Shown: piece after piece, positions 17,367 to 40,863 of the stretch
Position numbering within the stretch: position 1 is the stretch's first letter
How the letters are laid out: the number at the start of each line of letters is the position of its first letter
NCBI GenBank assembly: GCA_963204905.1
Contig: CAUJJN010000382.1
Coordinates: 25,798-89,797 of the forward strand
Reading direction: 5' to 3'
From: Pseudomonadota bacterium
Lineage (GTDB): Bacteria > Pseudomonadota > Alphaproteobacteria > Rhizobiales > Xanthobacteraceae
Length of the DNA: 64,000 nucleotides
Made by a program: the position numbers and the translations under genes
Notes under the pieces: model-generated
What the model was told of the DNA's origin: nothing
Seen by the model: the letters and a program-made list of their open reading frames with translations, nothing else
Databases searched by the model: none

Positions 17367-17381
17367 TGGCACGTCTGTTGC
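17367..17381 (+). promoter_or_regulatory. Sigma-54 promoter of csbD
   Basis: TGGCACGTCTGTTGC has the -24 GG and -12 GC separated by exactly 10 bp. It lies 82 bp before the csbD start codon. Confidence 0.85.
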
Positions 17382-17463
17382 GTTTGCTTGATGCGATGCG
17401 CGCCGACGCGTGGCACCCGGCACCGCGTCTGTGACGATCAGGCGAGACAACAAGGAGACGAAA

Positions 17464-20548: not shown

Positions 20549-20593
20549 AAATTATCATGGAGGCAGAAGAATTTACAACATGGGAACTTGGCC

Positions 20594-23162: not shown

Positions 23163-23214
23163 ATGCATTGCCGTTGCCGAGCGGCAGAGCATTGAAATCG
23201 CGCATCTTTCGATC

Positions 23215-23229
23215 TGGCACGCTGATTGC
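23215..23229 (+). promoter_or_regulatory. Sigma-54 promoter of grpE
   Basis: TGGCACGCTGATTGC, with GG and GC separated by 10 bp. It lies about 160 bp before the grpE start. Confidence 0.85.
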
Positions 23230-23390
23230 GTTCGCTTTGAACGGAATACGCAGCGCGCCGGCGCAAAGTGACGGATGAAGTACGAGGCAATGAAGCCGCG
23301 CCTTGCACAAGGCGCTATGGCCATCGTTCTCGATGGCGCACTGAGGGCGTCGCGCAAAATGCCCGGCAATCGTGACAATAGAGGCTCGCC

Positions 23391-24041
23391 ATGACAAACA
23401 ATTCACCGCCGCACCGTGCAGACCGCCGCTCGCAAAATGACCCCGATGGGGACAAGCCGTCTCACGCTACTGACCCTGCCGCAGCCCTGAAGCCCGAAGC
23501 TGACAACGCAGCCGCTGCGTCGGAAGCCAAGGCCGCACCTGCCGGCGCTGAGGCGGGCGGGGCCGCGGAAGATGCACACGAGCTTACCGCGCGCCTCCAG
23601 GCCGAAAACGCGAACCTGAAAGATCGCTTGCTGCGCGCCCTGGCGGAGGCCGAAAACGTCCGGCGTCGCTCCGAGCGCGATTTGAACGACATGCGCCAAT
23701 ACGCGGTGACGAAGCTTGCCGGCGACATGGCGAATGTTGCCAACAATCTGGAGCGTGCCTTGAGCAGTTTGCCGTCGGAGCTTCGCGCCGGTGAAGGTGC
23801 GCTCAAGACTTTCGTGGAAGGTGTCGAACTCACGGAGAAAGAACTTATCCGCTCGCTCGAAGCGCATGGTGTCAAAAAGATCGACCCAACGGGAACGCGC
23901 TTCGATCCGAATCTCCACGAAGCCTTGTTCACCGTTCAGGATCCGTCTGTCCCGAGCGGAACGGTTACGACCGTGGTTCAGCCTGGCTATACGATCGGGT
24001 CGCGCCCGTTGAGGCCAGCCAAGGTTGGTGTCGCGAGCTAA
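23391..24041 (+). CDS. grpE: GrpE nucleotide exchange factor (island copy)
   Basis: 216 aa. A disordered, Ala-rich N-terminus (~1-65) is followed by a coiled-coil segment (LQAENANLKDRLLRALAEAENVRRRSERDL) and the GrpE head with VEGVELTEKELIRSLEAHGVKKIDPTGTRFDPNLHEALF and GYTIGSRPLRPAKVGVA. GrpE releases ADP from DnaK. The gene is next to dnaK but has its own sigma-54 promoter and paired boxes. Housekeeping grpE in this bacterial group is normally elsewhere and heat-shock controlled, so this is probably a second copy. Confidence 0.93.
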   Translation: MTNNSPPHRADRRSQNDPDGDKPSHATDPAAALKPEADNAAAASEAKAAPAGAEAGGAAEDAHELTARLQAENANLKDRLLRALAEAENVRRRSERDLNDMRQYAVTKLAGDMANVANNLERALSSLPSELRAGEGALKTFVEGVELTEKELIRSLEAHGVKKIDPTGTRFDPNLHEALFTVQDPSVPSGTVTTVVQPGYTIGSRPLRPAKVGVAS

Positions 24042-24232: not shown

Positions 24233-24284
24233 CGGGTTTGCTGAACTCTCGACTTAACCCTTTGAATTTTCGCCGCTTTGGAAC

Positions 24285-24299
24285 TGGCACATGTGTTGC
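24285..24299 (+). promoter_or_regulatory. Sigma-54 promoter of dnaK
   Basis: TGGCACATGTGTTGC with correct GG-N10-GC spacing. It implies a 5' leader of roughly 320 nt before the GTG start of dnaK. Confidence 0.85.
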
Positions 24300-24632
24300 T
24301 CTTTCTCTTCCGCGCAACAGCACGAGCAACCCGTCAAGAAAAGCAGCAGGCGGCGACAGATGGCGAGATTTCCTACAATCCTTGGGCAAGTTGGCGACAG
24401 CATTCTGCGAAATCACGCGTCGAAGGCACTCTTCCACACGCCCTTCGTCCACGCGCCCTTCGCGTAGAGCGCGTCTGCTTGCATTGGGGTCGGGCGTCAA
24501 TCGGCCGGCCTGTTTTTCGAGCGATCAGCGATCTCCACCAACTCCATCGCCAGTCGCTCTTGTTCGGAGAAGTTCCCGAATTCAACCACAAAGATCCACA
24601 AAGCTAGAGCAGTTTTTTCAGAGGAGCATGGC

Positions 24633-26525
<1,893 letters not shown>

Positions 26526-26547
26526 CGACAAAGCAATGCCGAAACTT

Positions 26548-26601
26548 CCAAACCGAGGAGGCATCCAGTTGTTTCAACAACTCGCAACCTCCCCGGTTTG
26601 G
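26548..26601. terminator. Long stem-loop after dnaK
   Basis: CCAAACCGAGGAGG (26548-26561) pairs with CCTCCCCGGTTTGG (26588-26601) with one mismatch, and AGTTGTT/AACAACT form an inner hairpin. No T-tract follows, so it may act as an mRNA-stabilising or rho-assisted element instead of a classic terminator. Confidence 0.5.
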
Positions 26602-26667
26602 CCACGACCTCGAAAAGCAATTTTCCCTGGAGGCATGGCGCCTTCAGATTACCCGGAGCGTATCCTT

Positions 26668-27171
26668 ATGAAACGATACTACTCGACCGCCGCTATGCTC
26701 GCGCTTGGAACAATGCTGAGTGCACTCGGCTCAACTGCGCATGCGCAGCAATCGGCCCCTCCGCCCGTGCAGAAGGTGCAGGTCGGCGTGCTTGAATGCA
26801 AAGGCGGCCCGACCATTGGATTCATCGTCGGCGCGGTTACCAATCTCGCCTGCGTCTTGCGCATCAACGGGGTACCCGAAGACTACTACATCGCGACGAT
26901 TCAGAAGGTCGGCATCGACATCGGCATTACCGAGAGCACCGCGCTCGCATGGGCAGTGTTTGCCCCCGTCGCCCAGCCCGGCCGCGGTGATATCGCGGGG
27001 ACCTATACCGGCGTCGATGCCATGGCTGCAGCAGTCGTCGGAGTAGGCGGCAATGTGCTTCTGGGTGGTTCGAACAACAGCATTGCGCTACAGCCTGTCA
27101 GCGTGGAAGCTACAACCGGCGTGATCATCGCCGCAGGGCTGGAGAGCATGACCCTTCAGCCAGGTCGTTGA
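26668..27171 (+). CDS. DUF992 domain-containing exported protein
   Basis: 167 aa from MKRYYSTAAMLALGTMLSALGSTAHAQQ, a signal peptide with an AHA-Q cleavage site; GGAG precedes the ATG by 8 nt. The mature part VQVGVLECKGGPTIGFIVGAVTNLACVLRINGVPEDYY and GVGGNVLLGGSNNSIALQPVSVEATTG is the DUF992 fold, with two Cys likely forming a disulfide. Function unknown; these periplasmic proteins are frequent in rhizobiales. It sits inside the chaperone block, between dnaK and cbpA. Confidence 0.85.
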   Translation: MKRYYSTAAMLALGTMLSALGSTAHAQQSAPPPVQKVQVGVLECKGGPTIGFIVGAVTNLACVLRINGVPEDYYIATIQKVGIDIGITESTALAWAVFAPVAQPGRGDIAGTYTGVDAMAAAVVGVGGNVLLGGSNNSIALQPVSVEATTGVIIAAGLESMTLQPGR

Positions 27172-27188
27172 TACCGCGGGGCACCGCA

Positions 27189-27224
27189 GGTCGGGCTGGG
27201 GCGAACGATGTTCCTGGCCCGACC
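27189..27224 (+). terminator. Stem-loop after the DUF992 gene
   Basis: GGTCGGGC and GCCCGACC form a perfect 8-bp stem with a 20-nt loop starting 18 bp after the stop codon. No T-tract follows; a weak or rho-assisted terminator is possible. Confidence 0.4.
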
Positions 27225-27404
27225 GCCGAACAGATACTCGTTCTCGGCGAGGCAACTACGTCTTTTCGATCGCCATAGACCCGCAGGCATGGGAGCAGGA
27301 CACGGAGAAGCCAATTGAACATCCTGATGATCGAACCCACGCGGCGACATGCGGACAAACAATGCCGGCGCGAACATCCCATGCTTTGGTTCGGGGGACA
27401 GTGA

Positions 27405-28313
27405 GTGGCTACGAACCCGTATGACGTATTGGGCGTTTCTGCTTCGGCGTCGGCCGCCGACATTCAGAAGGCCTACCGCAAGCTTGCGAAGAAACTGCAC
27501 CCGGACCTGAACCCTGGCGACAAAGCCGCCGAGGAGAAGTTCAAGGAGGTAGCGGGTGCCTATGACCTGCTCGGCGATGCCGACAAACGCAAGCGCTTCG
27601 ATAGCGGCGAGATCGATTCGACGGGCGCCGAACGTCCCCAGCATTCCTATTACCGGGACTACGCCGATGACGGCGATTCCCATCGGTATTCCAACGGCGC
27701 CGGCTTCGCCGACTTCATGGACTCTGACGACGCGTTCGCCGAGCTGTTCAGGCGCGGTCAGCGCGCCCGGGCGAACCGTCGCGGCGAAGACATGCATTTT
27801 CGGCTGCCCATCGAATTTGTCGAATCCATCACCGGGGCGACCAAGCGGATTACGCTTCCCGACGGCGGCACGCTCGAGGTTAAGATTCCTGCGGGCCTCA
27901 TCGACGGGCAGACCCTGCGCCTGAAGGGCAAAGGCGCTCCGGGCACCGGCACGGGCGGCCCGGGCGATGCCCTGATCGATGTCGAGGTCATGCCGGATCG
28001 CCGTTTCATACGCGACGGTGACGACATCAGGATCGAGGTACCGGTATCGCTTTCCGAGGCTGTTCTGGGCGGCCGGATACGCGTGCCAACGCCGACAGGT
28101 GACGTGACCATGGCCATTCCGAAGGGATCGAACAGCGGAACCACCTTGCGCCTCAAAGGCAAGGGCGCACCGCTCCGCGGAGGTGGCAGTGGCGATGAGT
28201 TCGTGACGCTGAAGGTGGTTCTGCCGAAATCACCCGATCCGGCGCTCGAGGCGTTTGTCGAAGGCTGGGCCAAAGGCAAAGAGTTCAACCCGCGCGAAGG
28301 CAATCCGGCATGA
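27405..28313 (+). CDS. cbpA: CbpA-like DnaJ co-chaperone (type II Hsp40)
   Basis: 302 aa starting GTG. The J domain (~1-68) holds [29 protein letters not shown] with the HPD motif. Then come a Gly/Asp-rich linker and the DnaJ C-terminal domains ([53 protein letters not shown]). The zinc-finger domain of DnaJ is absent, as in CbpA. It would stimulate the nearby DnaK. The ATG of cbpM overlaps its stop codon. Confidence 0.92.
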
Positions 28314-28600
28314 CGTTGAGCAAGCAACAATTTTTGACGACCTCGGGACTGCGGGTGCACACCCTTGAGCTTTGGCTCGAGCAGCAATGGCTCATTCCGG
28401 TGGAGACGACGGACGACGGGGCAACCTTCTCGGATGTCGATGTCGCTCGTGCGCGGTTGATCTTGAATCTCAAGGACGACTTCGGGATCAATGACGAGGG
28501 CATCGACGTCATCCTTCATCTCCTCGATCAACTTCATGGCGCCAGGCAAGCCATGGCGGTGTTGCGCGCAGCTGGCACCGATCGACCTGGAGACGCCTGA
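28310..28600 (+). CDS. cbpM: CbpM-like chaperone modulator
   Basis: 96 aa with a MerR-like helical layout ([70 protein letters not shown]). CbpM binds the J domain of CbpA and inhibits it. The 4-bp overlap with cbpA supports a tight functional pair. Confidence 0.87.
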
Positions 28601-28649
28601 ACATTATTCGGTTCGTCGGCGGGCCGACGGTATAGGAGCAGGTAGATCG

Positions 28650-28886
28650 ATGGCGGGAACAGCCTCATCCAACGGATCAATCGAGACGCTTGTTCTCCAG
28701 GCGCTCGTGCGCAAGCTCGTTCAAACGAAGGTGCTGAGCCGGGACGACGTGACCGCCCTTCTCACCGATGCGGCGACGCGCCTGAACATCGATGGATCTC
28801 CTCAAACGCCGCGCGCGGCGGCCACCATCGTCGGGGAAGATTTGCTACCCACGTATCTGGACGACGCCGGCTTCTCACGCCCCTAG
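28650..28886 (+). CDS. Hypothetical protein (78 aa)
   Basis: Starts MAGTASSNGSIETLVLQALVRKLVQTKVLSRDDVTALLTDAATRL; predicted helical, no signal or membrane part. AGGAGCAGG lies about 10 nt before the ATG. The track ORF begins earlier, but that part overlaps cbpM and is not supported. Its place after cbpM suggests the same transcript. Function unknown. Confidence 0.6.
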   Translation: MAGTASSNGSIETLVLQALVRKLVQTKVLSRDDVTALLTDAATRLNIDGSPQTPRAAATIVGEDLLPTYLDDAGFSRP

Positions 28887-28900
28887 TTGCGGAGCGCCCA

Positions 28901-29149
28901 GTGGACGTGGCGATCACCCAATATCAGGTCCATTGCGACAAGACGCGGCCCACACCGATATTGCGGTTGATCGGGGTGACTGCGTCAATCTCGATGTTGC
29001 GGCAATTGCAGATCGACAACGGTGCGCCATCAAATATTGTCGATGATAGAGCGCTGTACTTGATAACGCACCTGCTATTATGCGGATTTATAAGCGATTT
29101 CTTCGTCAAACAGGTTTCTGCGAAAGACTGGATGACAGTCAGTGACTAG
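28901..29149 (+). CDS. Possible small protein (82 aa), weak support
   Basis: GTG-start frame MDVAITQYQVHCDKTRPTPILRLIG... in a stretch with lower GC than its neighbours. No convincing ribosome site and no known motif. It may be chance or a remnant. Confidence 0.25.
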   Translation: MDVAITQYQVHCDKTRPTPILRLIGVTASISMLRQLQIDNGAPSNIVDDRALYLITHLLLCGFISDFFVKQVSAKDWMTVSD

Positions 29150-29163
29150 CGGATGAGCGCGCA

Positions 29164-29307
29164 TTGAAGCACGGGGATCGTCTTGCGGCCGATGCCAAAG
29201 CCGTCGCGACCGGACGTTTTGGCATCGGCAGATTGCTTGCCTGGTTCGCGGCTTCGTTCGGCATGGGACTATCCATTGCACTGGAGAAGGCGATCGCATT
29301 GTTTTGA
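29164..29307 (+). CDS. Possible small membrane-active peptide (47 aa), weak support
   Basis: TTG-start frame ending GRFGIGRLLAWFAASFGMGLSIALEKAIALF. The last 30 residues form an amphipathic or membrane-like helix. It lies directly before the response regulator gene. There is no clear ribosome site. Too short for the ORF track. Confidence 0.25.
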   Translation: MKHGDRLAADAKAVATGRFGIGRLLAWFAASFGMGLSIALEKAIALF

Positions 29308-29342
29308 GATGAGCGCCTGGCAGGCGCCTGGAGTAAGCATGA

Positions 29343-30731
29343 ATGTCTGGAGAAACCCATCGCGAAGACGCTGAGCCGCCTGTCGCCCCTGAATTCGGGC
29401 CCTGGCTCGCTCAGGCCTCCATACTGATCGTTGATGACGAGCCCGGGATCCGCAATTTCCTGGTCAAGATGCTGCGCCCACGCTGCAAGCTCATCTGCGA
29501 GGCCGCCGACGCCAGGGAAGCATCGAGAAAGCTCGACGAGCAACATTTCGATGTCGTGATCCTGGACAATGTCATGCCGGGCAAAACAGGCCTGGATTGG
29601 CTCGCCGAGCAGCGCGCCATCGGCTTCTTCGCCGATGTGATCCTGATGACCGCCTATGCCGATCTGGATACCGCGATCGGCGCCTTGCGCATCGGCGTCA
29701 TTGATTTTGTCATCAAGCCGTTCCGGTCGAATCAATTGCTCAACGCGATCGCACGCTGTCTCGACCGTGCGCGACTGGAGCGCGAAAACTACGTCCTGCG
29801 CCATGAGAGGCAGTTGCCCTCCCGCCAGCTCTATTTGCGCGACAAATTGCTCGGCACGTCGCCGGCAATCGACCAGGTACGCAAGACGATCGCGAGGGTC
29901 GCGCCGTTGCCGACATCGATCCTGCTGACAGGCGAATCGGGAACGGGCAAGGAGGTCGCGGCCAGATCAATCCACTCGCTGTCGAACCGGGCCGACAAGC
30001 TGTTCGTCCCGGTCAACTGCGCCGCCATTCCAGCCGATATGCTGGAAAGCGAGCTTTTCGGTCATGTGAAAGGCGCCTTTACCGGCGCTGGCAAGGCGCG
30101 TGAAGGCCTTTTCATGTCCGCCGAAGGCGGAACGCTGTTCCTGGACGAGATCGGCGAACTCCCATTCCATATCCAGAGCAAGCTGCTGCGTGCACTCGAG
30201 GAGCGCAAGGTTCGTCCGGTCGGCTCGGAACGGGAAATCCCGGTCGACGCCCGCTTCGTCTTCGCCACGAACGTCGACCTTGAGGCGGGTGCTGCGGCCG
30301 GATCGTTCCGTGCCGATCTCTACTATCGCATCAACATCATGCAGATCCATTTGCCGGCGCTTCGGGAGCGCGAGCAGGACGTACTCGAACTCGCCGAGCT
30401 GTTCATGCGTGAGATTTCGGGCTCGCTGGGCATGCCCGCCATTGCCATCGACGGTGGGATGCGCGCCTTTCTCTCGCGCTATGACTGGCCCGGCAACATC
30501 CGCGAACTGCGCAACCTGATCGAGCGCACTGTCATTCTCGGCGAATTCCGGGAAGACCACTTGAAGCCACGCGCGCACCTGGGGACTGACAGCGTCACGC
30601 TTGCCGATGTCGAGCGGCGGCACATCCTGTTCGTGCTTCACGAAGCCGGCGGCGACCGCGAGGAGGCCGCGCGGCGGCTCGGCATTTCCCGCAAGACGAT
30701 CGATCGAAAATGCGCAAGCTGGCAGTCTTGA
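29343..30731 (+). CDS. NtrC-family sigma-54 dependent response regulator
   Basis: 462 aa. Receiver domain ~25-140 with acidic pocket VDDEP, phospho-Asp at ~75 (VVILDNVMPGKTG) and KPFRS Lys. AAA+ domain ~165-395: Walker A LLTGESGTGKEVAARSIHS, the sigma-54 contact loop GAFTGA at ~244-249 intact, Walker B GGTLFLDEIGEL, and an arginine-finger region (REREQDVLELAELFM). The C-terminal Fis-type helix-turn-helix is DREEAARRLGISRKTIDRK. It should activate RNA polymerase with sigma-54 from distant sites; the paired GGACA boxes before sigma-54 promoters on both sides are the obvious targets. The kinase gene overlaps its end by 22 bp. Confidence 0.94.
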   Translation: MSGETHREDAEPPVAPEFGPWLAQASILIVDDEPGIRNFLVKMLRPRCKLICEAADAREASRKLDEQHFDVVILDNVMPGKTGLDWLAEQRAIGFFADVILMTAYADLDTAIGALRIGVIDFVIKPFRSNQLLNAIARCLDRARLERENYVLRHERQLPSRQLYLRDKLLGTSPAIDQVRKTIARVAPLPTSILLTGESGTGKEVAARSIHSLSNRADKLFVPVNCAAIPADMLESELFGHVKGAFTGAGKAREGLFMSAEGGTLFLDEIGELPFHIQSKLLRALEERKVRPVGSEREIPVDARFVFATNVDLEAGAAAGSFRADLYYRINIMQIHLPALREREQDVLELAELFMREISGSLGMPAIAIDGGMRAFLSRYDWPGNIRELRNLIERTVILGEFREDHLKPRAHLGTDSVTLADVERRHILFVLHEAGGDREEAARRLGISRKTIDRKCASWQS

Positions 30732-32746
30732 CGGCGGCCCTGCTCAACAAGCATTCGGTGCGGTTTCGCCTTTTGGCGATCGCACTCTTGCCGATGCTCG
30801 TCATCCTGCCGCTGCTTCTCGGCATCAGCATCCATCGCTGGAACGCGAAATTCGACGCGGCATTGACGTCCAAGGCCTATGACGACCTGACCATCGCCAG
30901 ACAGTACCTGGCGCGGATCCTTGACAACACCCAAAGCCGTCTCGATGCCTCGGTTCAATCGGCGCGGTTCCAATCGATCCTCGCCACCTCCGCCGCAGCG
31001 CCTGCTCCGCTTGGCAATTTTCTGCAAGAGACAGCGACAGCACACGCGCTGAGTTTTCTCTACATCGTGGACAGTAACGGCAAGGTCGTGGCGAGTAACT
31101 ATCCCATGGCGGCCGCGCCACGCGCGGATTGGCCGGTCATCACCGCGGCGCTCGGGGGAGCCGCTCGCACGGCGATCGACGTGTTTCAACCCATCGAGCT
31201 CGCCAAATTCTCGAACGACCTTGTCCGGCAGGCGTACGTCGACATCGTCGTGACGGAGCGGAGCCTGCCCACGACCAGAACCCAGGAAACCCGGGGCCTG
31301 GTGCTCCAGTCGGCCGTCCCGTTTGATTTGCCTGACGGCGCGCATGCCGCGTTGGTCGGCGGTATCCTCCTCAATCACAATCTGGGCTTCGTCGACAGGA
31401 TCAACGATCTGATCTTCTCCGAGAGGGGTCTGCCGGAAGGAAGCAAGGGGACCGTCACTCTGTTTCTCGACGATGTGCGCATCAGCACGAATGTCCTCAT
31501 GTTCGAGGGGAAGCGCGCTATCGGCACGCGCGTCTCAACCGAAGTCCGAAACGCAGTGCTCGGTCGGGGCCAGATCTGGCTAGACAGCGCCTTCGTCGTC
31601 AATGACTGGTATGTTTCTGCCTATGAGCCGCTGCTCGACAGCCATGATCGCCGCGTCGGCATGCTTTATGCCGGATATCTCGAGATGCCGTTCACGCAGG
31701 CCAAACGCCAGACGGTGATCGAAATCGCGCTCGCCTTCTTGCTTGCGGTGATCGCCACCGTACCCTTGTTCCTGAAATGGGCCGCGGCGATCTTTCAGCC
31801 GCTGGAGCGCATGACGGACACGATCTCCCAGGTTGAAGGCGGCAAACTGGATGCCCGCACCGGGCCGGTGCCTGGAACGGACGAGCTCACGCGTGTTGCT
31901 GTTCAACTCGACCGGATGCTCGATCGGCTCGGCGAGCAGGACCTGGAGCTCAGGGCCGCGAACCAGACGCTCAATCAGCGTGTCGAGGAGCGGACCAGCA
32001 AGCTCGTACAGGCCAATCGACAATTGGAAACGACGACCAAGCAGCTCATCATGTCTGAGAAATTGGCCACGATCGGCGAGATCACCGCGGGTGTGGCGCA
32101 CGAAATAAACAATCCGATCGCGGTGATGCAGGGCAATCTGGAGATCATCAAGGATCTGATGGGCCCGAAAGCGGAGGAGGCAAAGACCGAGTTTCGGCTG
32201 ATCGACGAGCAGATGAGCCGGGTGAGCGAGATCGTGACGCGCTTGCTTCAGTTTGCCAAGCCGCAGGAATATGTCGGCTATACGGACCAGTATGACCCCG
32301 GGACCGTCGTCACGGACACGCTGCCGCTCGTGAAACATCTGCTGAACAAGACGACGATATCGGTCGAAAGGGACTTTCGCGCGACACGATTGGTGACGAT
32401 GAACAGGACCGAGCTGCAGCAGGTTGTCGTCAATCTGCTGGTCAACGCGATCCACGCGATGGCGAAAGGTGGTCGTCTGACGGTGCGGACCTGCGATCGC
32501 GACGACGGTGCGCGTTACGGCATCGCGATCGAGGTCATCGACACCGGAAGCGGCATGTCGCCCGAGGTAAAGCAGCGAATTTTCGATCCGTTCTTCTCGA
32601 CCAAGCAGCGAGAAGGCACGGGTCTTGGGCTTTCTATCAGCCAGATGCTGGTGACCCGCCAAGGGGGCAAGATCACGGTCAAAAGCGAGCGCGGCAAGGG
32701 TACGGCGTTCACGGTCTGGTTGCCGTCGGTCGACTTATCGCGCTGA
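30710..32746 (+). CDS. Sensor histidine kinase with periplasmic cache-type domain
   Basis: 678 aa. TM1 ~18-41 (RFRLLAIALLPMLVILPLLLG), a large periplasmic domain ~42-335 with cache-like features (FLYIVDSNGKVVASNYPMAAA; MLYAGYLEMPFTQAKRQTV), TM2 ~336-356, then HAMP (PLERMTDTISQVEGGKLDARTG), coiled coil, HisKA with phospho-His ~464 (GEITAGVAHEINNPIAVMQGN), and HATPase (VVNLLVNAIHAM, DTGSGM, GTGLGLSISQML). The architecture resembles DctB/NtrB-like kinases that pair with NtrC-type regulators. The ligand is unknown; cache domains often bind small acids or amines. It is translationally coupled to the response regulator. Confidence 0.93.
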   Translation: MRKLAVLTAALLNKHSVRFRLLAIALLPMLVILPLLLGISIHRWNAKFDAALTSKAYDDLTIARQYLARILDNTQSRLDASVQSARFQSILATSAAAPAPLGNFLQETATAHALSFLYIVDSNGKVVASNYPMAAAPRADWPVITAALGGAARTAIDVFQPIELAKFSNDLVRQAYVDIVVTERSLPTTRTQETRGLVLQSAVPFDLPDGAHAALVGGILLNHNLGFVDRINDLIFSERGLPEGSKGTVTLFLDDVRISTNVLMFEGKRAIGTRVSTEVRNAVLGRGQIWLDSAFVVNDWYVSAYEPLLDSHDRRVGMLYAGYLEMPFTQAKRQTVIEIALAFLLAVIATVPLFLKWAAAIFQPLERMTDTISQVEGGKLDARTGPVPGTDELTRVAVQLDRMLDRLGEQDLELRAANQTLNQRVEERTSKLVQANRQLETTTKQLIMSEKLATIGEITAGVAHEINNPIAVMQGNLEIIKDLMGPKAEEAKTEFRLIDEQMSRVSEIVTRLLQFAKPQEYVGYTDQYDPGTVVTDTLPLVKHLLNKTTISVERDFRATRLVTMNRTELQQVVVNLLVNAIHAMAKGGRLTVRTCDRDDGARYGIAIEVIDTGSGMSPEVKQRIFDPFFSTKQREGTGLGLSISQMLVTRQGGKITVKSERGKGTAFTVWLPSVDLSR

Positions 32747-32753
32747 CGGAACG

Positions 32754-32787
32754 GGACATTTCGTCTTTTGTGGACGACACATTGTCC
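32754..32787. promoter_or_regulatory. Paired boxes downstream of the kinase gene, upstream of a small-protein operon
   Basis: GGACATTTCGTCT (32754-32766) and CGACACATTGTCC (32775-32787), starts 21 bp apart, each one or two bases off consensus. The second box starts 67 bp before the -24 GG. Confidence 0.7.
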
Positions 32788-32840
32788 TCCGTCGGACCGA
32801 AGCACGCGGCCACGGCATTGATTTACGGGAACATTCGGTC

Positions 32841-32855
32841 TGGCATGCGGGTTGC
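32841..32855 (+). promoter_or_regulatory. Sigma-54 promoter before the 65-aa protein gene
   Basis: TGGCATGCGGGTTGC, GG-N10-GC spacing correct, with T in place of C at the end of the -24 block. It lies 63 bp before the small gene. Confidence 0.8.
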
Positions 32856-32917
32856 TTTAAGTTAGGTCGATAGACAACACGGATCAGCGTCGCAAATCAT
32901 CGGAAGGAGACCACATA

Positions 32918-33115
32918 ATGTCTCGTCATCACGGCAAGATGCCGCCCGTTCCACCGGCCAATCGCAGTTCGAAAGGCGTGGGTGGCGCCCCCGACGCCAA
33001 GCAGGATACGTCGTCGAAAAAGCGCGAGGACAATGACGCCGAACAGGGCGAGACGGCGAACATTCGCGAGAACACCACCAATGCTGGTTACTTCCGCGGT
33101 CGGCGGGTCAAGTAA
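32918..33115 (+). CDS. Small hydrophilic stress-island protein (65 aa)
   Basis: MSRHHGKMPPVPPANRSSKGVGGAPDAKQDTSSKKREDNDAEQGETANIRENTTNAGYFRGRRVK. It is highly charged, Gly/Pro/Asn-rich and free of large hydrophobic stretches, so it is probably unstructured and recalls hydrophilin-like stress peptides. AAGGAG lies 8 nt before the ATG. It is the first gene after a sigma-54 promoter. Function unknown; no family recognised. Confidence 0.78.
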   Translation: MSRHHGKMPPVPPANRSSKGVGGAPDAKQDTSSKKREDNDAEQGETANIRENTTNAGYFRGRRVK

Positions 33116-33186
33116 GCCGGCCAAGTGAACTGTCGCTGACCGGCATGAGCCATCGGCCATCCGCGTAAATAACAAGGAGTTCCGAG

Positions 33187-33576
33187 ATGACCGTCGTCAC
33201 TATTGCGCAGCTTTCAAAGGATTTGCAGGCATCGGCGCAGTCGGTCATCGATCGGGCGGGGCTTATTCCGCAATCGCCCGATCAGGGTCTGAGCGCCAAC
33301 GATCTGCTGTCCTGTCTCCTTCAGACGTCGATCCCTATGGCGGCCTTTCTGCGCAACAATAGTCTTTACACCGACGACGACGGCTTGCACTTCGATCTGG
33401 CCCGCTTTCCGGCGATACAGGCCGTCGCCAGCCAGATCATTGCCGAATACCAGGCTGGCAATCGCGACGATCTCTGGCAGAAATACGATCTTCAAACGGA
33501 CGAGGATGCCGACACGAATGGCGGGTATATTTTGACGGCGCTTGCCACGCTGGAGATACTTTACGGTCCGCGCTAA
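33187..33576 (+). CDS. Hypothetical protein (129 aa)
   Basis: MTVVTIAQLSKDLQASAQSVIDRAGLIPQSPDQGLSANDLLSCLLQTSIPMAAFLRNNSLYTDDDGLHFDLARFPAIQAV...; soluble, mixed helical, no signal peptide. AAGGAGTTCCGAG before the ATG is a clear ribosome site. It lies 71 bp after the 65-aa gene and is likely on the same transcript. No family recognised. Confidence 0.75.
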   Translation: MTVVTIAQLSKDLQASAQSVIDRAGLIPQSPDQGLSANDLLSCLLQTSIPMAAFLRNNSLYTDDDGLHFDLARFPAIQAVASQIIAEYQAGNRDDLWQKYDLQTDEDADTNGGYILTALATLEILYGPR

Positions 33577-33655
33577 TCCAGGGCCTACGGCGAGCGCAGA
33601 CTTTGTGGAAGTGGATGTGTTGTCCTCGGTCCGCTGGGCCGCAACCGGCGAGGGA

Positions 33656-34285
33656 ATGTTGAGCAAAGACCATGTAACGACGCCGAAGACGGTGATGATC
33701 ATCCGGCACGGTGAGAAGCTTGGCGATCCTGGCGACGACAAGGACGCGGGGTCTAGTCTGTCCGCACACGGCGCGGCGCGCGCGGCCGCGTTGCCGAGCC
33801 TTTTCCTGCCACCCGCCATGAGCCGTGAGTGTGTGCTGGAACACGATTCCCACGTGGGGCTGACGGCCACCTATGTGGCCGGCAAGGTGCCCAAAGGTGC
33901 CGCGCGGTTTCCTGTGCCGGACTTCCTCTTCTCGACTGCGCACTCGCCGAAAAGCAAACGTCCGAGGCAGACCATCACGCCGCTCGCCGCTGCACTCGGA
34001 TTGCCGATCAACCACGATTACAGCGACGACAAGAAGGACATCGACGCGCTCGCCACTCTGCTCCGGACCTCGCACTATGCCGGCAAAACCGTCCTGATCT
34101 GCTGGCATCACGGCACCATATCGAACCTCGCGACTGCGCTCGGCGCCACCGGTGCCACGCCCTGGGCCCCAACAGTGTTCGATCGGGTGTGGGTCATCCA
34201 CTATGATGCGGCACGCGCCATCCGCCAATTCGGCCAGGAACTTCTGTTCGGCGATGAAACAAACGTGCCTACCGCCCCTTGGTGA
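33656..34285 (+). CDS. Histidine phosphatase-like protein (phosphoglycerate mutase superfamily)
   Basis: 209 aa from MLSKDHVTTPKTVMIIRHGEKLGDPGDDKDAGSSLSAHGAARAAAL. The RHGE motif with the later SKRPRQT and CWHHGTI (second catalytic His) match the branch 1 histidine phosphatase fold. The ORF track starts 38 codons earlier, overlapping the previous gene; a GGCGAGGG motif next to this ATG is only fair. The substrate is unknown; members act on sugar phosphates, phosphoproteins or signalling molecules. It closes the small operon that begins at 32918. Confidence 0.72.
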   Translation: MLSKDHVTTPKTVMIIRHGEKLGDPGDDKDAGSSLSAHGAARAAALPSLFLPPAMSRECVLEHDSHVGLTATYVAGKVPKGAARFPVPDFLFSTAHSPKSKRPRQTITPLAAALGLPINHDYSDDKKDIDALATLLRTSHYAGKTVLICWHHGTISNLATALGATGATPWAPTVFDRVWVIHYDAARAIRQFGQELLFGDETNVPTAPW

Positions 34286-34379
34286 TGCGCGTTCGGAATG
34301 AGCGGGCCCGTGGCGACCACGGCCCGCGGCGGATACTTTCGCTGGCCGTCTACCCCGGCAGCTTCTGCACCAAGGTCTT
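34286..34379. other. Intergenic sequence before the DUF2171 control region
   Basis: No gene seen between the phosphatase-like gene and the next paired boxes. The whole gap to the DUF2171 gene (34286-34868) holds the control region plus a 22-codon ORF (34797-34865). Confidence 0.4.
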
Positions 34380-34415
34380 GGACATTTTGTCCGTCAACGA
34401 ACCGACAACATGTCC
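34380..34415. promoter_or_regulatory. Paired boxes upstream of the DUF2171 genes
   Basis: GGACATTTTGTCC (34380-34392) is the best match to the consensus in the window. CGACAACATGTCC (34403-34415) follows 23 bp later, and its start lies 67 bp before the -24 GG. Confidence 0.8.
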
Positions 34416-34468
34416 AAGTGGCAGCGACGTCTTTCGGGTAATTGATTGATATTTCAAGCCATACGATC

Positions 34469-34483
34469 TGGCACAGCTGTTGC
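34469..34483 (+). promoter_or_regulatory. Sigma-54 promoter upstream of the DUF2171 genes
   Basis: TGGCACAGCTGTTGC with GG-N10-GC spacing. It predicts a leader of about 370 nt before the first DUF2171 gene. Confidence 0.84.
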
Positions 34484-34796
34484 TCTGTAGATAAGCTACG
34501 GTAACGCGTCTGCATTGCCGGCCGCTCCTGCAATCCAGCGATCGGCTCCTCTATGCCGAGCACGTGAGTGCCGAAAACGGTAGACCGCCGTTTCGGGCGG
34601 CGTGTCCAGCACGTTTCGTTAGGCGAAAACGATGGTGATGTGTGGCGAAATGTCAGGTCATTCAGGCAATGGCGAACCGCGCGAGAACGCACGTAAGGTC
34701 GAAGGTTCAATATCTCGGCAGGAAAAACGGTCTCACCTTCAACGGGAAGACAACGCCAACGTTGGGCGAGGGGGATGAAATTGTCGCCGTCTGAGG

Positions 34797-34868: not shown

Positions 34869-35123
34869 ATGACGATGAAGGATAAGATCAAGGAGAACAT
34901 GGAGGTCGTTGGATTCGAGGGCGGCCATCTTGGTGTCGTCGACTGCGTCGAAGGGGATCGGATCAAGCTCAAGAAGCGGGACGGCGATCACGGGAAGCAA
35001 GACAAGCATCACCACTATATTAGTCTTGATCTTGTGAATGATATCCAAAACCATAAGGTTCGGCTTTGCTGCGACGCTGACATCGACGCGCTCTTCGAGG
35101 GCACAGGTCGGATCGACCGGTGA
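34869..35123 (+). CDS. DUF2171 domain-containing protein (copy 1)
   Basis: 84 aa: MTMKDKIKENMEVVGFEGGHLGVVDCVEGDRIKLKKRDGDHGKQDKHHHYISLDLVNDIQNHKVRLC. This is the small beta-barrel PRC-like fold of DUF2171, with an HHHY patch. The ATG two codons later (34875) is an alternative start. Copy 2 lies 69 bp downstream. DUF2171 proteins are often stress-induced in alphaproteobacteria, but their role is unknown. The promoter is sigma-54 with paired boxes. Confidence 0.87.
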   Translation: MTMKDKIKENMEVVGFEGGHLGVVDCVEGDRIKLKKRDGDHGKQDKHHHYISLDLVNDIQNHKVRLCCDADIDALFEGTGRIDR

Positions 35124-35192: not shown

Positions 35193-35450
35193 ATGATGGC
35201 GAACAACATCAAAGAAGGTATGGAGATCATCGGCGCGGACGGCGTTCATGTCGGCACCGTCGATCGGGTCGAAGGCGACCGAATCAAGCTCTCCAAGAAA
35301 GACAGTTTCGGCACCCACGCAGGCCACCACCACTACATCGAGCTCGGTTTCGTTGCCGGTGTCGAGGGCACCAAGGTGCGGCTGTCGGCAAATGCCGATA
35401 TCGCGGTGACGTTGGAAGAAGAACCGTCGGGCCGTCCGGTCAACCTGTAG
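35193..35450 (+). CDS. DUF2171 domain-containing protein (copy 2)
   Basis: 85 aa: MMANNIKEGMEIIGADGVHVGTVDRVEGDRIKLSKKDSFGTHAGHHHYIELGFVAGVEGTKVRLSANADIAV. It clearly matches copy 1 along its length (GVHVGTVDRVEGDRIKL versus GGHLGVVDCVEGDRIKL), so this is a tandem duplication. GAAAGGAACATGAT before the start gives a fair ribosome site; either of the two adjacent ATGs may be used. It lacks the Cys residues found in copy 1. Confidence 0.88.
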   Translation: MMANNIKEGMEIIGADGVHVGTVDRVEGDRIKLSKKDSFGTHAGHHHYIELGFVAGVEGTKVRLSANADIAVTLEEEPSGRPVNL

Positions 35451-35552: not shown

Positions 35553-35663
35553 GCGCGGGTGCCCGATTATTCAACCTAGCCTATTGATCGCGATAGGAAC
35601 TCAAACTGACGCGTCGGTTTCTCATTCATGAGCAAGACGTGTGATCATTGGAGATAAAGGACG

Positions 35664-35858
35664 ATGCAGGAATACGATCTCTACATCAATGTGAAGAAGC
35701 CGGCGATTGGCCTTTACGTCAAAAAGGGTGCGAGCCTTCCTGATATCGCCGACAAGTCGGACTGGGTGTTCGACGGAACCTCGGCCCAAGATCTTCTGCC
35801 GCCGAGCGTCATCGAAGGGGTCAACGCCTTCGGTCACGCTTTTCGCGACATGGATTGA
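35664..35858 (+). CDS. Small hypothetical protein (64 aa)
   Basis: MQEYDLYINVKKPAIGLYVKKGASLPDIADKSDWVFDGTSAQDLLPPSVIEGVNAFGHAFRDMD. Soluble and acidic. GGAGATAAAGGACG gives two possible ribosome sites before the ATG. It precedes the formate dehydrogenase gene by 51 bp and is probably co-transcribed. No family recognised with certainty. Confidence 0.75.
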   Translation: MQEYDLYINVKKPAIGLYVKKGASLPDIADKSDWVFDGTSAQDLLPPSVIEGVNAFGHAFRDMD

Positions 35859-35909: not shown

Positions 35910-37070
35910 ATGGCAACCGTATTGTGCGTGCTCTATCCCGATCCGACCACCGGCTATCCGCCGCATTATGCGCGCGACGAGATTCCCCTGATCGCGGACT
36001 ACGCCGACGGGCAATCCCTGCCAAGACCTCGGGGGCCGCTCGGCTTCCGTCCTGGCGAGCTCATTGGCTGCGTTTCAGGAGAACTCGGTCTCAGGCACGT
36101 CCTGGAGAAGGCTGGTCACAAGCTCATCGTGACCAGCGACAAGGAGGGGCCCGGCTCGGAATTCGAGCGATGGCTTCCAGAGGCCGATGTCGTGATCTCC
36201 CAGCCTTTCTGGCCGGCCTATCTCACCGCCGAGCGCATTGCCAGGGCACCCAGACTGAAGCTTGCAGTGACCGCAGGGATCGGCTCCGATCACGTCGACC
36301 TCGCTGCGGCCGCGGCCGCCGGTATCACGGTCGCGGAGGTGACCGGTTCGAATTGCGTCAGCGTCGCCGAGCACGTTGTCATGATGGTGCTGGCGCTGGT
36401 CCGCAACTACCTGCCCTCACACGCGATATCAGTTACCGGTGGCTGGAACATCGCCGATTGCGTCGCCCGCAGTTACGACCTTGAGGGAATGCACTTCGGC
36501 ACGATCGGCGCCGGCCGGATCGGTCTCGCGGTGTTACGACGGCTGAAGCCGTTCGATGTACCTTTGCACTATACCCAGCGTCACCGGCTCGCGGCCGAGA
36601 CCGAAGCCGAACTCGGCCTGACCTTTCATCCGGATGTCTCGTCGCTGGTGCGCGCCGTCGACATCGTCAATCTCCAACTGCCGCTCTACCCCGCGACCGA
36701 AGGGCTATTCAACGACGCCATGTTCTCGACGATGAAGCGCGGCGCGTATCTCATCAACACGGCACGAGGGCGGCTGGTCGAACGCGACGCGGTCGTGCGA
36801 GCTCTGGAAAGTGGTCATATCGCGGGCTATGCCGGCGACGTCTGGTTCCCTCAACCCGCACCAGTCAATCATCCCTGGCGCACGATGCCCTTCAACGGCA
36901 TGACGCCTCACATTGCCGGCACGTCGCTGTCCGCGCAGGCGCGTTATGCAGCAGGCACCCTAGAAATACTGCAGGACTTCTTTGACGGCACGCCCATCCC
37001 GGACGATTATTTGATCGTCGACGGCGGGCGACTCGCCGGTACCGGTGCGAAATCTTATGGGCTGACCTGA
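35910..37070 (+). CDS. fdh: NAD-dependent formate dehydrogenase
   Basis: 386-aa D-2-hydroxyacid dehydrogenase fold of the NAD-FDH type. Markers are SQPFWPAYLTAERIARAPRLKLAVTAGIGSDHVDL, VAEVTGSNCVSVAEHVVMMVLAL (substrate Asn), the NAD motif GTIGAGRIGLAVLRRL, INTARGRLVERDAV (catalytic Arg), and FNGMTPHIAGTSLSAQARYAAG (catalytic Gln/His). It oxidises formate to CO2 with NADH formation, a cofactor-free enzyme unlike the YdeP-type molybdenum protein upstream. NADH could feed NDH-2 encoded 2.4 kb downstream. The ATG follows a GGGGAGAGAGG-type ribosome site. Confidence 0.92.
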   Translation: MATVLCVLYPDPTTGYPPHYARDEIPLIADYADGQSLPRPRGPLGFRPGELIGCVSGELGLRHVLEKAGHKLIVTSDKEGPGSEFERWLPEADVVISQPFWPAYLTAERIARAPRLKLAVTAGIGSDHVDLAAAAAAGITVAEVTGSNCVSVAEHVVMMVLALVRNYLPSHAISVTGGWNIADCVARSYDLEGMHFGTIGAGRIGLAVLRRLKPFDVPLHYTQRHRLAAETEAELGLTFHPDVSSLVRAVDIVNLQLPLYPATEGLFNDAMFSTMKRGAYLINTARGRLVERDAVVRALESGHIAGYAGDVWFPQPAPVNHPWRTMPFNGMTPHIAGTSLSAQARYAAGTLEILQDFFDGTPIPDDYLIVDGGRLAGTGAKSYGLT

Positions 37071-37159: not shown

Positions 37160-38236
37160 GTGCCATCAATTGTTTCTCAATCTGTCGTCGCAAAGCTGAC
37201 CCGCGCGGCGATCTTCATTGTCGTCAAGATCAATGCGGGCAAGGAGCCCGAGACGGCTGTTCGCGGTCTTTGCGCCGATCTGTCCTCCCTGGTACGCGGT
37301 GCCGGATTTCGACGCCTGAACGGACAGCTTTCCTGCGTAACCGGGTTTGGAACGGAGGCATGGGACAGGTTGTTCGGCGCTCCGCGGCCGAAGGAATTGC
37401 ACGCCTTTCGCGAGATTCGCGGCGTGCATACCGCCGTATCGACGCCGGGCGACATTCTTTTCCATATTCGCGCCAGCAGCATGGATCAGTGCTTTGAACT
37501 GGCGAGCAACATCATGGGGCGGCTATCCGGCTATGTTTCGGTTGTCGACGAAGTTCATGGCTTCAAGTTCTTCGACGATCGCGATCTGCTCGGCTTTGTA
37601 GACGGAACCGAGAATCCGGTCGACCAAGCCGCAGCGTCGGCAACACTCATCGGCAGCGAAGATCCGGAATTCGCCGGGGGCAGCTATGTCATCGTGCAGA
37701 AATATCTGCATGACCTCGAGCGCTGGAACAAGGTTCCCGTCGAGGAGCAGGAGAATATCATCGGCCGTCACAAGCTGTCCGATATCGAGCAGCGCGACGC
37801 CGACAAGAAGCCTTATGCACATAACGTGCTCACCAACATCGAGGAGAACGGCGAGCAACTGCAAATCCTGCGCGATAACATGCCATTCGGCGAAATCGGT
37901 AAAGGCGAGTTCGGCACCTATTTTATCGGCTTCGCCTGTTCGCCATCACGCATCGAGAAGATCCTGGAGAACATGTTCGTCGGCAATCCGCCTGGCACAT
38001 ACGATCATATTCTCGATTTCAGCCGAGCGGTGACCGGCTGTCTGTTCTTCGTGCCGACGTCGACCTTTCTCGACGCCGTCTCCGATACCGCTCCCGCCGA
38101 TACCTCGCCTGACATCGGCGATGCGGCCCCGGGTCCGGATCTTTCCGATCTGCAGGAAGCACCGGCGAAACACATGAGCGTCATTGACGCCTCACTGGGA
38201 ATTGGCTCGTTGAAGAAGAAGGCTGGCAATGAATAA
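37160..38236 (+). CDS. DyP-type peroxidase with encapsulin-targeting tail
   Basis: 358 aa, GTG start. The heme peroxidase domain (~1-310) has LLGFVDGTENPVD with distal Asp ~148, KPYAHNVLT with likely heme-ligand His ~221, and EQLQILRDNMPFGEIGKGEFGTYFIGFA with distal Arg ~238, fitting class P/B DyPs. A Pro/Asp-rich linker follows, then the extreme C-terminus DASLGIGSLKKKAGNE. SLGIGSLK is the known cargo-loading peptide that docks DyP inside encapsulin shells. The next gene encodes that shell and overlaps by 8 bp. Confidence 0.95.
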   Translation: MPSIVSQSVVAKLTRAAIFIVVKINAGKEPETAVRGLCADLSSLVRGAGFRRLNGQLSCVTGFGTEAWDRLFGAPRPKELHAFREIRGVHTAVSTPGDILFHIRASSMDQCFELASNIMGRLSGYVSVVDEVHGFKFFDDRDLLGFVDGTENPVDQAAASATLIGSEDPEFAGGSYVIVQKYLHDLERWNKVPVEEQENIIGRHKLSDIEQRDADKKPYAHNVLTNIEENGEQLQILRDNMPFGEIGKGEFGTYFIGFACSPSRIEKILENMFVGNPPGTYDHILDFSRAVTGCLFFVPTSTFLDAVSDTAPADTSPDIGDAAPGPDLSDLQEAPAKHMSVIDASLGIGSLKKKAGNE

Positions 38237-39053
38237 TCTCCATCGACATCTTGCACCGATCTCCGACACCGCTTGGGATCAGATCGCGGACGAGGCCTCG
38301 CGCACCCTGAAGCGACATCTTGCCGGCCGGCGCGTCGTCGATGTCCCCAAGCCGAAGGGCGAAACTCTGTCGGCCATCGGCACGGGACATCTTCAGGCGA
38401 TCGCATCGCCGGGCGATGGCATTGAGGCCCAGCAGCGCCAGCTCAAGGCCATCGTCGAACTGCGCCTTCCCTTTCAGCTCTCACGCCAGCAGATCGATGA
38501 CGTCGATCGCGGCGCCCTCGACGCGGATTGGTCTCCCGTCAAGGATGCAGCGCAAAAGATCGCGTTCGCGGAAGATCGCGCGATCTTCGACGGCTTCGCG
38601 GCGGCCGGGATCCAGGGCATTCGCGAGGCCAGCAGCAACACCAGGCTTGTTCTTCCTCCGAGCGTGAAGGCCTATCCGAGCGCTGTGGCGCAGGCGGTCA
38701 GCAGCCTGCGCCTGGCCGGTTGCAACGGACCTTATGCACTTGTTCTGGGCGCGCAGGCCTATACCGCGGCAAGCGGCGGTAGCGACGAGGGCTATCCGGT
38801 GCTGCATCACATCGAGAACATCGTTGATGGCGGCGTGATCTGGGCTCCGGCCATCGAGGGCGCCTTCGTGCTGACGACACGCGGTGGCGATTTTGAGTTG
38901 GATATCGGCCAGGATCTGTCGATCGGTTATCTCAGCCACACGGCGACGACCGTCGACCTGTATTTCCAGGAGACGTTCACGTTCCGTGTCCTGACCACCG
39001 AGGCGTCCGTTGTGCTGCAGCCCAGCCCCGCCGACGCCGCAACGACGAAGTAG
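38229..39053 (+). CDS. Encapsulin shell protein (family 1, HK97 fold)
   Basis: 274 aa. It starts MNNLHRHLAPISDTAWDQIADEASRTLKRHLAGRRVVDVPKPKGETLSAIGTGHL, the conserved N-terminal arm and helix of linocin/CFP29-type encapsulins. Later markers are VELRLPFQLSRQQIDDVDRGALDADW, GIQGIREASSN, and QDLSIGYLSHTATTVDLYFQETFTFRVLTTEASVVL. It self-assembles into a protein nanocompartment that carries the DyP peroxidase through its tail peptide. The gene overlaps the peroxidase gene, so cargo and shell are made together. The size is normal for a 60-mer shell. Confidence 0.96.
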   Translation: MNNLHRHLAPISDTAWDQIADEASRTLKRHLAGRRVVDVPKPKGETLSAIGTGHLQAIASPGDGIEAQQRQLKAIVELRLPFQLSRQQIDDVDRGALDADWSPVKDAAQKIAFAEDRAIFDGFAAAGIQGIREASSNTRLVLPPSVKAYPSAVAQAVSSLRLAGCNGPYALVLGAQAYTAASGGSDEGYPVLHHIENIVDGGVIWAPAIEGAFVLTTRGGDFELDIGQDLSIGYLSHTATTVDLYFQETFTFRVLTTEASVVLQPSPADAATTK

Positions 39054-39132: not shown

Positions 39133-39354
39133 ATGACGGAGCGTTTCAAAGTCGGCGATCATGTCGCCTGGAACTCTGAAGCTGGCCATGTCTCCGGCAC
39201 CGTCATCGCAATCCACACGGCCGATTTCAACTACAAGGGCTATATCCACCACGCCTCGGAGGAAGATCCGCAATACGAGATCAAGAGCGAAAAGAGCGAC
39301 CATGTCGCGGCCCACAAGGGCGGGGCCTTGCGTCTGTTGCGACGAGGAGCCTGA
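39133..39354 (+). CDS. HVA1/DUF2945 TUDOR-like domain protein
   Basis: 73 aa: FKVGDHVAWNSEAGHVSGTVIAIHTADFNYKGYIHHASEEDPQYEIKSEKSDHVAAHKGGALRLL, the whole hypervirulence-associated TUDOR-like domain. A GAGGAAGAGG site lies 8-10 nt upstream. These small proteins are widespread in soil bacteria, with no proven role; the fold suggests nucleic-acid or protein binding. Its stop codon overlaps the start of the next short ORF (TGATG). Confidence 0.87.
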   Translation: MTERFKVGDHVAWNSEAGHVSGTVIAIHTADFNYKGYIHHASEEDPQYEIKSEKSDHVAAHKGGALRLLRRGA

Positions 39355-39515
39355 TGAGCTTTCCATTCTACACCACAGGCCACTCGCACCGGAGCCTCCA
39401 TATCTTGGAAGGCGGGCGCCGTGAACCGGCGCTGCTTGTCTCAGGCGCTCAACCGCACGCCGACGGCACGATCACCTATCCGCCCCACAAGCGGAAGCAC
39501 GACCGTGACCGATAA
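39354..39515 (+). pseudogene. Truncated DUF488-like fragment (53 aa)
   Basis: MSFPFYTTGHSHRSLHILEGGRREPALLVSGAQPHADG... . The first 15 residues match the conserved start of DUF488 proteins (FYTIGHSxRS), but the rest diverges and the frame ends after 53 codons, whereas DUF488 proteins have about 120-180 residues. It overlaps the TUDOR-like gene by one base and NDH-2 by 11 bp. It looks like a deletion remnant that joined a DUF488 5' end to the NDH-2 region. Confidence 0.45.
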
Positions 39516-40863
39516 TCTGCCCCACCATGTCGTTATTGTCGGCGGTGGTTTCGGCGGCCTTGAGGTGGCGCGGCAGCTGACCTCCGCGAAGATCAGGATC
39601 ACACTGATCGATCGTCGCAATCACCATCTGTTTCAGCCTCTTCTCTATCAGGTGGCAACGGCCTCGCTGGCGACGTCCGAGATCGCCTGGCCGATCCGCT
39701 CGCTGCTGCGTCGGCGCGAGAATGTGACGACACTCCTGGCGACAGTCGTCGACGCGAACGGGAAAACGGCTTCGGTTACGTTGGAGAACGGAGAAGCCAT
39801 CGGGTTCGACACACTGGTCCTCGCCACAGGCGCGCGGCATGCCTATTTTGGCCACGACGAGTGGGAGCCGTTCGCGCCCGGACTGAAAACCATCGAGGAT
39901 GCGACGGGGATCAGGCGACGGCTGCTCGTCGCGTTCGAGCGCGCAGAACGTTGCAACGACCCAAATGAGCGCGCGAAACTTTTGACCTTTGTGGTGATCG
40001 GCGGCGGGCCGACCGGCGTCGAGCTCGCCGGAACGATCGCCGAACTCGCGCATGAGACGTTGCACGGCGATTTTCGCAACATCGACACGCACGACGCTTG
40101 CGTCGTTCTCGTCGAGGCCGGGCCCCGTTTGCTGCCGGGCTTCAAACATTCGCTCTCCGACTACGCCAGTCGCGCATTGACGCGCCTCGGCGTCGAGGTT
40201 CGCCTTGGTCATCCGGTCTCCCAATGCACATCCGAAGGCGTTGTAGTCGATGGCGATCTGTTGCCGGCCAGCACGATTTTATGGGCAGCCGGGGTTGCGG
40301 CGTCGCCAGCGGCCGACTGGCTCGATGCACCAGCAGATCGCGCCGGGCGCATCCTCGTCGAGCCCAACCTGACCGTTCCTGGCCATGCGAACATCTTCGC
40401 GATTGGAGATACGGCCCATGTCGTCCTCCCGGGTGGCCGGATGGTTCCGGGCATCGCGCCGGCGGCCAAGCAGGAAGGCCGCTATGTTGCAAAGGTCATT
40501 GATGCACGGCTGCGTGGTGATGCGGCGCCGGGACCGTTCAGATATCGCGATGCCGGTTCGCTCGCGACCATCGGCAAGCGGGCCGCTGTCGTCGATTTCG
40601 GCTGGGCCACTTTCAGGGGCCGCATCGCCTGGTGGCTTTGGGGATTTGCACACATCTACTTTCTGATCGGGTTGCGCCATCGGCTTGCAGTCGCATTGAG
40701 CTGGTTGTGGATCTATCTGACCGGGCAGCGCAGTGCCCGACTTATCACCCAGGGCCGAGAGCGGCTGGCCGATCCGCCAGCGATCGCACCTTCCGCGCCC
40801 GCCGCAGCCGGGCTTGATGCCGGGCGAGCAGACCTCGAAGGAGCGCGCGATGCGAGACAGTGA
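39505..40863 (+). CDS. ndh: Type II NADH:quinone oxidoreductase (NDH-2)
   Basis: 452 aa from the GTG (MTDNLPHHVVIVGGGFGGLEVARQL) behind GGAAG; the track start 28 codons earlier adds unrelated sequence. Two Rossmann motifs are visible: VIVGGGFGGLEVAR (FAD) and VVIGGGPTGVELAGTIAEL (NADH). NIFAIGDTAHV, PGIAPAAKQEGRYVAK and QPLLYQVATASL are NDH-2 features, and a C-terminal amphipathic part (IAWWLWGFAHIYFLIGLRHRLAVALSWLWIYLTGQRSARLI) anchors it to the membrane. It passes electrons from NADH to quinone without pumping protons, a useful overflow route under stress. Confidence 0.91.
   Translation: MTDNLPHHVVIVGGGFGGLEVARQLTSAKIRITLIDRRNHHLFQPLLYQVATASLATSEIAWPIRSLLRRRENVTTLLATVVDANGKTASVTLENGEAIGFDTLVLATGARHAYFGHDEWEPFAPGLKTIEDATGIRRRLLVAFERAERCNDPNERAKLLTFVVIGGGPTGVELAGTIAELAHETLHGDFRNIDTHDACVVLVEAGPRLLPGFKHSLSDYASRALTRLGVEVRLGHPVSQCTSEGVVVDGDLLPASTILWAAGVAASPAADWLDAPADRAGRILVEPNLTVPGHANIFAIGDTAHVVLPGGRMVPGIAPAAKQEGRYVAKVIDARLRGDAAPGPFRYRDAGSLATIGKRAAVVDFGWATFRGRIAWWLWGFAHIYFLIGLRHRLAVALSWLWIYLTGQRSARLITQGRERLADPPAIAPSAPAAAGLDAGRADLEGARDARQ

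Follow-up and report, generated by a model that had tools for sequence, protein, structure and literature searches.

A DyP-type peroxidase gene and an encapsulin shell gene lie in tandem, followed by two further genes, in the window (the whole stretch of 64,000 nucleotides of DNA that was analysed):

37160..38236, + strand: DyP-type peroxidase (cargo), 358 aa, GTG start
38192..38215, + strand: docking (targeting) peptide SLGIGSLK, C-terminal in the DyP
38229..39053, + strand: family-1 encapsulin shell protein, 274 aa
39133..39354, + strand: DUF2945 (Hva1_TUDOR) protein, retained 3' of the shell gene in relatives
39505..40863, + strand: NDH2-like NAD(P)H:quinone oxidoreductase (Pfam Pyr_redox_2, NDH2_C), start inferred

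DyPs of the encapsulated group are marked by GxxDG, the heme-ligand His and the distal Arg, and we take the residues in the GFVDG, YAHN and ILRDNMPFG motifs of the window DyP to have these generally known roles. The three motifs are retained and align with 9e5e and 8u4z, the encapsulin-associated DyPs (8u4z from Klebsiella) that are the nearest solved structures, and family assignment came from Pfam and NCBIfam (Dyp_perox_N/C; TIGR01413 at 4.6e-81). The protein ends in ...DASLGIGSLKKKAGNE, in which SLGIGSLK is identical in relatives and agrees with the published DyP targeting motif GSLxIGSLK (PMC10960027). An earlier note on this DNA had claimed that the peroxidase ends with this docking peptide and overlaps the shell gene by 8 bp; the peptide was borne out, and the overlap is exact (38229-38236). 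As a special feature the overlap was rejected, since it is the most frequent arrangement (39 of 90 non-redundant pairs), and both tail and overlap are found family-wide.

The shell protein scored 350.7 bits on NF041155 (family-1 encapsulin; cut-off 100) and also matched Linocin_M18, and it aligns without gaps with the Klebsiella shell 8u50 over 266 residues. Among the docking residues studied in PMC10960027, Arg34, Asp38 and Asp229 are identical in the window shell and Ile230 is replaced by Leu. The DyP tail provides the co-encoded cargo with a C-terminal targeting peptide that is expected of family 1. The window shell shares 75-83% identity with shells of Hyphomicrobiales, compared with 60-63% for those of enterobacteria. 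At the level of sequence, the DyP and the shell are thus confirmed as encapsulin nanocompartment genes of a known sort with a canonical docking tail. That encapsulin-DyP pairs are already known was also stated correctly in the earlier note, and the solved pairs closest to the window are enterobacterial.

In Bosea and Shinella relatives the NDH2 gene overlaps the end of the shell gene. In the window, a 53-codon ORF with a DUF488-like start (FYTTGHSHRSL) lies at 39354-39515, and it is probably the truncated leftover of a gene that is intact in L104. This locus, on contig C267 of the same assembly, carries a second DyP-shell pair (approximately 2300-4150, minus strand), has one in-frame TGA in its shell gene, and is 86-88% identical in DNA and syntenic with the loci of G003-G005 of the same genus. 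It may be a contaminant, as the assembly contamination is 5.75%, or a genuine second locus.

Upstream of the pair lies an island of chaperone and regulatory genes, together with sites resembling sigma-54 promoters that were detected by pattern scan:

17367..17382, + strand: sigma-54-like site, before a csbD-like gene
23215..23230, + strand: sigma-54-like site, before grpE
23391..24041, + strand: GrpE (family searches)
24285..24300, + strand: sigma-54-like site, before dnaK
24633..26525, + strand: DnaK (translation; homology to dnaK of relatives)
27405..28313, + strand: CbpA-type DnaJ (family search; J domain annotated in Shinella/Bosea counterparts)
28310..28600, + strand: CbpM-like chaperone modulator, MerR-like (CbpM annotated in Shinella/Bosea counterparts)
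29343..30731, + strand: NtrC-type response regulator, a sigma-54 activator (Pfam Sigma54_activat, Response_reg, HTH_8)
30710..32746, + strand: sensor histidine kinase with cache domain (Pfam)
32841..32856, + strand: sigma-54-like site, before the gene at 33187
34469..34484, + strand: sigma-54-like site closest 5' of the DyP gene, TGGCACAGCTGTTGCT (11/12 consensus)
34869..35123, + strand: DUF2171 protein, copy 1 (Pfam PF09939)
35193..35450, + strand: DUF2171 protein, copy 2 (Pfam PF09939)

All five TGGCAYR-N4-TTGC sites of the 64 kb (17367 to 34469) are on the + strand, and each precedes an island gene. The expectation from a second-order shuffle is 0.125 sites per window, with a maximum of 1 in 40 shuffles, and the sigma-54 island is therefore considered real. 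It additionally holds the csbD-like gene, a cardiolipin synthase gene and an FdhF/YdeP oxidoreductase gene, all 5' of the DyP gene. With GrpE, DnaK, DnaJ, CbpM and the five sites in place, the suggestion that the pair sits by chaperone genes with shared boxes stood.

Two other members of the island recur near DyP-encapsulin pairs. The FdhF/YdeP-type oxidoreductase (20588-22861) has counterparts in alpha- and beta-proteobacteria and Nocardia (L108, L159, L100, L062, L063, L072, L085), and the 129-aa protein at 33187-33576, which has no Pfam or NCBIfam match and follows its own sigma-54-like site, is conserved in L014, L020 and L029.

Two genes lie between the DUF2171 copies and the DyP gene:

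35664..35858, + strand: small64, a conserved 64-aa protein of no known family (alignment, codon pattern, distribution)
35910..37070, + strand: formate dehydrogenase (FDH), predicted NADP+-dependent, without docking tail (NF005750; residue check; tree)

From 34469 through the shell gene there are thus six co-directional genes (two for DUF2171, small64, FDH, DyP and shell). The gaps among them are at most 214 bp and the scan of the window gave no terminator-like site on the + strand from 34469 to the DyP gene, so transcriptional read-through from 34469 to the DyP-shell pair appears possible. The pattern scan gave no sigma-54-like site between 34485 and the DyP gene, the closest being about 2.7 kb upstream. 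In four relatives (L014, L015, L021, L025) a strong sigma-54-like site is found 402-623 bp upstream of the DyP gene, just before small64; four sites scoring 11-12 within 800 bp of DyP compare with 0.05 expected, which supports direct sigma-54 control of these loci. By analogy, co-control of the window pair by sigma-54 is indicated indirectly. Most other relatives are without a sigma-54-like site directly before DyP.

These data can also be read as an ordinary DyP-encapsulin operon that merely happens to lie next to a chaperone island, with FDH and small64 unrelated to it and its own promoter 5' of small64 or FDH. The lack of a sigma-54-like site within 2.6 kb of the window DyP fits such an operon, the 214-bp gap before small64 could hold a promoter, and the DyP-shell pairs of most relatives have neither such a site nor an FDH. 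However, identical neighbours recur across genera, small64 occurs among relatives solely with DyP-encapsulin, and sigma-54 sites precede small64-DyP-shell in the four relatives, and we consider this alternative rather unlikely.

Motifs of other regulators were also searched for 5' of the DyP gene. Among 49 alphaproteobacterial loci, no EcfG, sigma-32 or HrcA motif was of consensus quality, and no FNR boxes were found upstream of DyP. A loosened EcfG pattern matched 5 loci against 1.0 expected and was set aside because it had been selected after the window had been inspected. The loose EcfG-like GGAAC...GGTT is found at 35596-35619 of the window and also 5' of DyP in L034, L035, L036, L040 and L093, and it may reflect only control of DUF2171. 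The literature search gave no paper joining encapsulin with sigma-54.

The small64 gene was missed by the earlier note. In an alignment of 13 sequences it has 23 invariant columns, and the differences at codon positions 1, 2 and 3 (1162, 687 and 2454) show a third-position excess. Searches of Pfam, NCBIfam and PHROGs returned nothing for the protein, and a PDB sequence search gave no match of weight; the predicted structure has a beta-beta-beta-alpha-beta fold (pLDDT 85), for which no fold match fell below E = 0.001. It is present in 3 of 101 relatives, each time beside DyP-encapsulin (p = 0.0005, uncorrected for kinship), and near DyP in the beta-proteobacteria Caballeronia and Paraburkholderia caribensis. 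On the P. caribensis plasmid (L158) small64 lies 2.4 kb from DyP, with no shell gene within the 24 kb stretch. Some relatives carry frame-broken remnants, so small64 seems to be dispensable in places. It is by its position that small64 is given a putative role with the DyP or the shell.

The neighbourhood was compared across 77 loci from genome contigs. In Hyphomicrobiales the pair is flanked by varying subsets of DUF2171, DUF2945, NDH2, CbpA/CbpM and a ClpB-like gene. The chaperone setting recurs in several genera of the order, and the gene neighbourhood of the island counts as conserved in Hyphomicrobiales, with FDH mostly absent. The plasmid of Shinella sp. HZN7 (L161) shares with the window cbpA, cbpM, DUF2171, small64, DyP, shell, NDH2 and DUF2945, in this order on the plasmid, and that of Bosea sp. 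F3-2 (L160) has GrpE, Hsp20, CbpA, CbpM, DUF2171, small64 and DyP; unlike in the window, no FDH lies between small64 and DyP in either. A locus of the same genus in a Xanthobacteraceae MAG (L014; G001/L096) resembles the window in its sigma-54 activator, kinase, 33187-like gene, DUF2171, small64, DyP, shell, DUF2945 and NDH2, and has three sigma-54-like sites. It differs in that ClpB is present, FDH is absent and a sigma-54-like site stands directly before small64.

The FDH gene ends 90 bp before the DyP start. Its product matched NF005750 with 650 bits (cut-off 329), and the motifs QPFWPAY, SN, NTARG, PQPAP and TPH are all retained. That the pair follows an FDH had been noted before, and this holds; the assignment to the NAD type does not. 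Where NAD+ specificity would call for an acidic residue (Asp), the enzyme has Gln223 (codon approximately 36576-36578), in HYTQRHRL as against HYxD in NAD+ enzymes. Gln at this position is shared with the NADP+-dependent FDH of Burkholderia stabilis (PMC5817062, PMC4410396), which comes from another class than the window; there it is the natural NADP+ state, and Q223E shifts the enzyme to NAD+ (PMC5817062). At the matching position of the Pseudomonas FDH, Asp to Ser confers NADP+ use (PMC4410396). Gln is found in each of the encapsulin-linked FDHs from Klebsiella, Burkholderia and the window, which form one tree group (92/77; 96/91 with G356). Based on Gln223 and this grouping, the window FDH is firmly predicted to be NADP+-dependent and should make NADPH. 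The literature search gave no paper joining encapsulin with an NADP-type FDH as understood here.

FDH is rare: 6 of 101 relatives have a true FDH above the cut-off, and with E < 1e-150 as threshold it occurs in 8 of 385 genomes of the class and 5 of 399 of the phylum. Its closeness to the DyP-encapsulin pair is therefore notable. Such closeness (up to about 5 kb) was observed in the window, in Burkholderia, Tsukamurella and G091, and on enterobacterial plasmids (L106 with the complete FDH, L091 and L107 with part of it). Within the 101 relatives alone the co-occurrence of FDH and encapsulin is not significant (p = 0.09), and adjacency is the striking part. With FDH in just 2 of 50 genomes that have DyP-encapsulin, the compartment does not appear to need it, and a conserved membership in the Hyphomicrobiales island was rejected. 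By Gln223, the metabolic link that had been proposed would be to NADPH and not to NADH. A strict linkage of Gln-type FDH and encapsulin was rejected as well, because Gln types occur without encapsulin beside them (Paraburkholderia L143/L144, G913, G356); the encapsulin-linked FDHs of G091 and Tsukamurella have Asp. FDH as a second cargo was rejected since its sequence has no targeting tail. The enterobacterial FDH, called NAD-dependent in Klebsiella, was likewise judged to be no cargo for want of a targeting peptide (PMC10960027).

The FDH-DyP-encapsulin order is on record for enterobacteria (PMC10960027, PMC12140327), and the order as such is therefore no novelty. The Klebsiella pneumoniae FDH-DyP-encapsulin-RpoH operon (PMC10960027; L106) resembles the window in the order FDH-DyP-shell, the 8-bp overlap, the GSLxIGSLK-type tail and the Gln-type FDH without tail, and the shells are 63% identical. 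In contrast, no RpoH gene or mobile flanks were seen around the window pair, the genes 3' of the window shell being DUF2945 and NDH2-like with no RpoH-like gene; the sigma-54/chaperone island, the DUF2171 pair, small64, DUF2945 and NDH2 belong to the window and not to the Klebsiella operon. Large AAA ATPase genes (850-950 aa) adjoin DyP-encapsulin in Klebsiella, Burkholderia, Tsukamurella and Caballeronia (L106, L108, L146, L159), disaggregase-like according to length and annotation.

From this resemblance FDH, DyP and shell could be one mobile cassette as in enterobacteria, with a formate link that is functional everywhere. The gene order equals that of the enterobacterial cassette, and the FDH is closer to those of Klebsiella and Burkholderia (77-80% identity) than to most alphaproteobacterial FDHs (60-73%). 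However, the shell is nearer to Hyphomicrobiales than to enterobacterial shells, so the history of FDH would differ from that of the DyP-shell pair, the identities already pointing to DyP and shell from within Hyphomicrobiales and FDH from outside. In relatives small64 adjoins DyP, and the window FDH stands between the two as though it had entered by itself; the RpoH gene is absent after the shell. A single cassette is thus improbable, and FDH, being closest to beta/gamma enzymes, was probably acquired on its own, at a place between small64 and DyP.

We consider it likely that the locus encodes a stress-induced DyP-encapsulin nanocompartment, with proposed roles for sigma-54, FDH and small64. 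The family-1 shell, the intact docking tail, the conserved docking residues and the placement in the sigma-54/chaperone island are read from the sequence itself. In the proposed course, a stress signal would act through the island kinase and the NtrC-type activator on sigma-54 transcription of the chaperones, and read-through from 34469 would give transcription of DUF2171-small64-FDH-DyP-shell. The tail would draw DyP oligomers into a shell of about 24 nm, in which DyP would reduce peroxide. Having no tail, FDH should remain outside, where its oxidation of formate to CO2 would yield NADPH for reductive repair and not feed DyP directly, and small64 would be a dedicated partner of the DyP or the compartment. 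Against this explanation we count the lack of a sigma-54-like site right before DyP in the window and in most relatives, the absence of FDH from most relatives, the Gln-type FDHs away from encapsulin and the two linked FDHs with Asp.

The sigma-54/chaperone setting, the probable NADP+-type FDH and the unnamed, putative small partner appear to be what is new here. More tentatively, small64 could be a new dedicated component of DyP-encapsulin loci in alpha- and beta-proteobacteria, and the linked FDHs of alpha-, beta- and gamma-proteobacteria could be one NADP+-type lineage coupling formate oxidation to NADPH in stress. NADPH production by the linked FDH, if true, would call for a revision of the published proposal that this enzyme provides respiration with reducing equivalents. 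The conserved putative 64-aa partner offers a handle on the working of the compartment, and the sigma-54/chaperone setting suggests when the compartment is produced.
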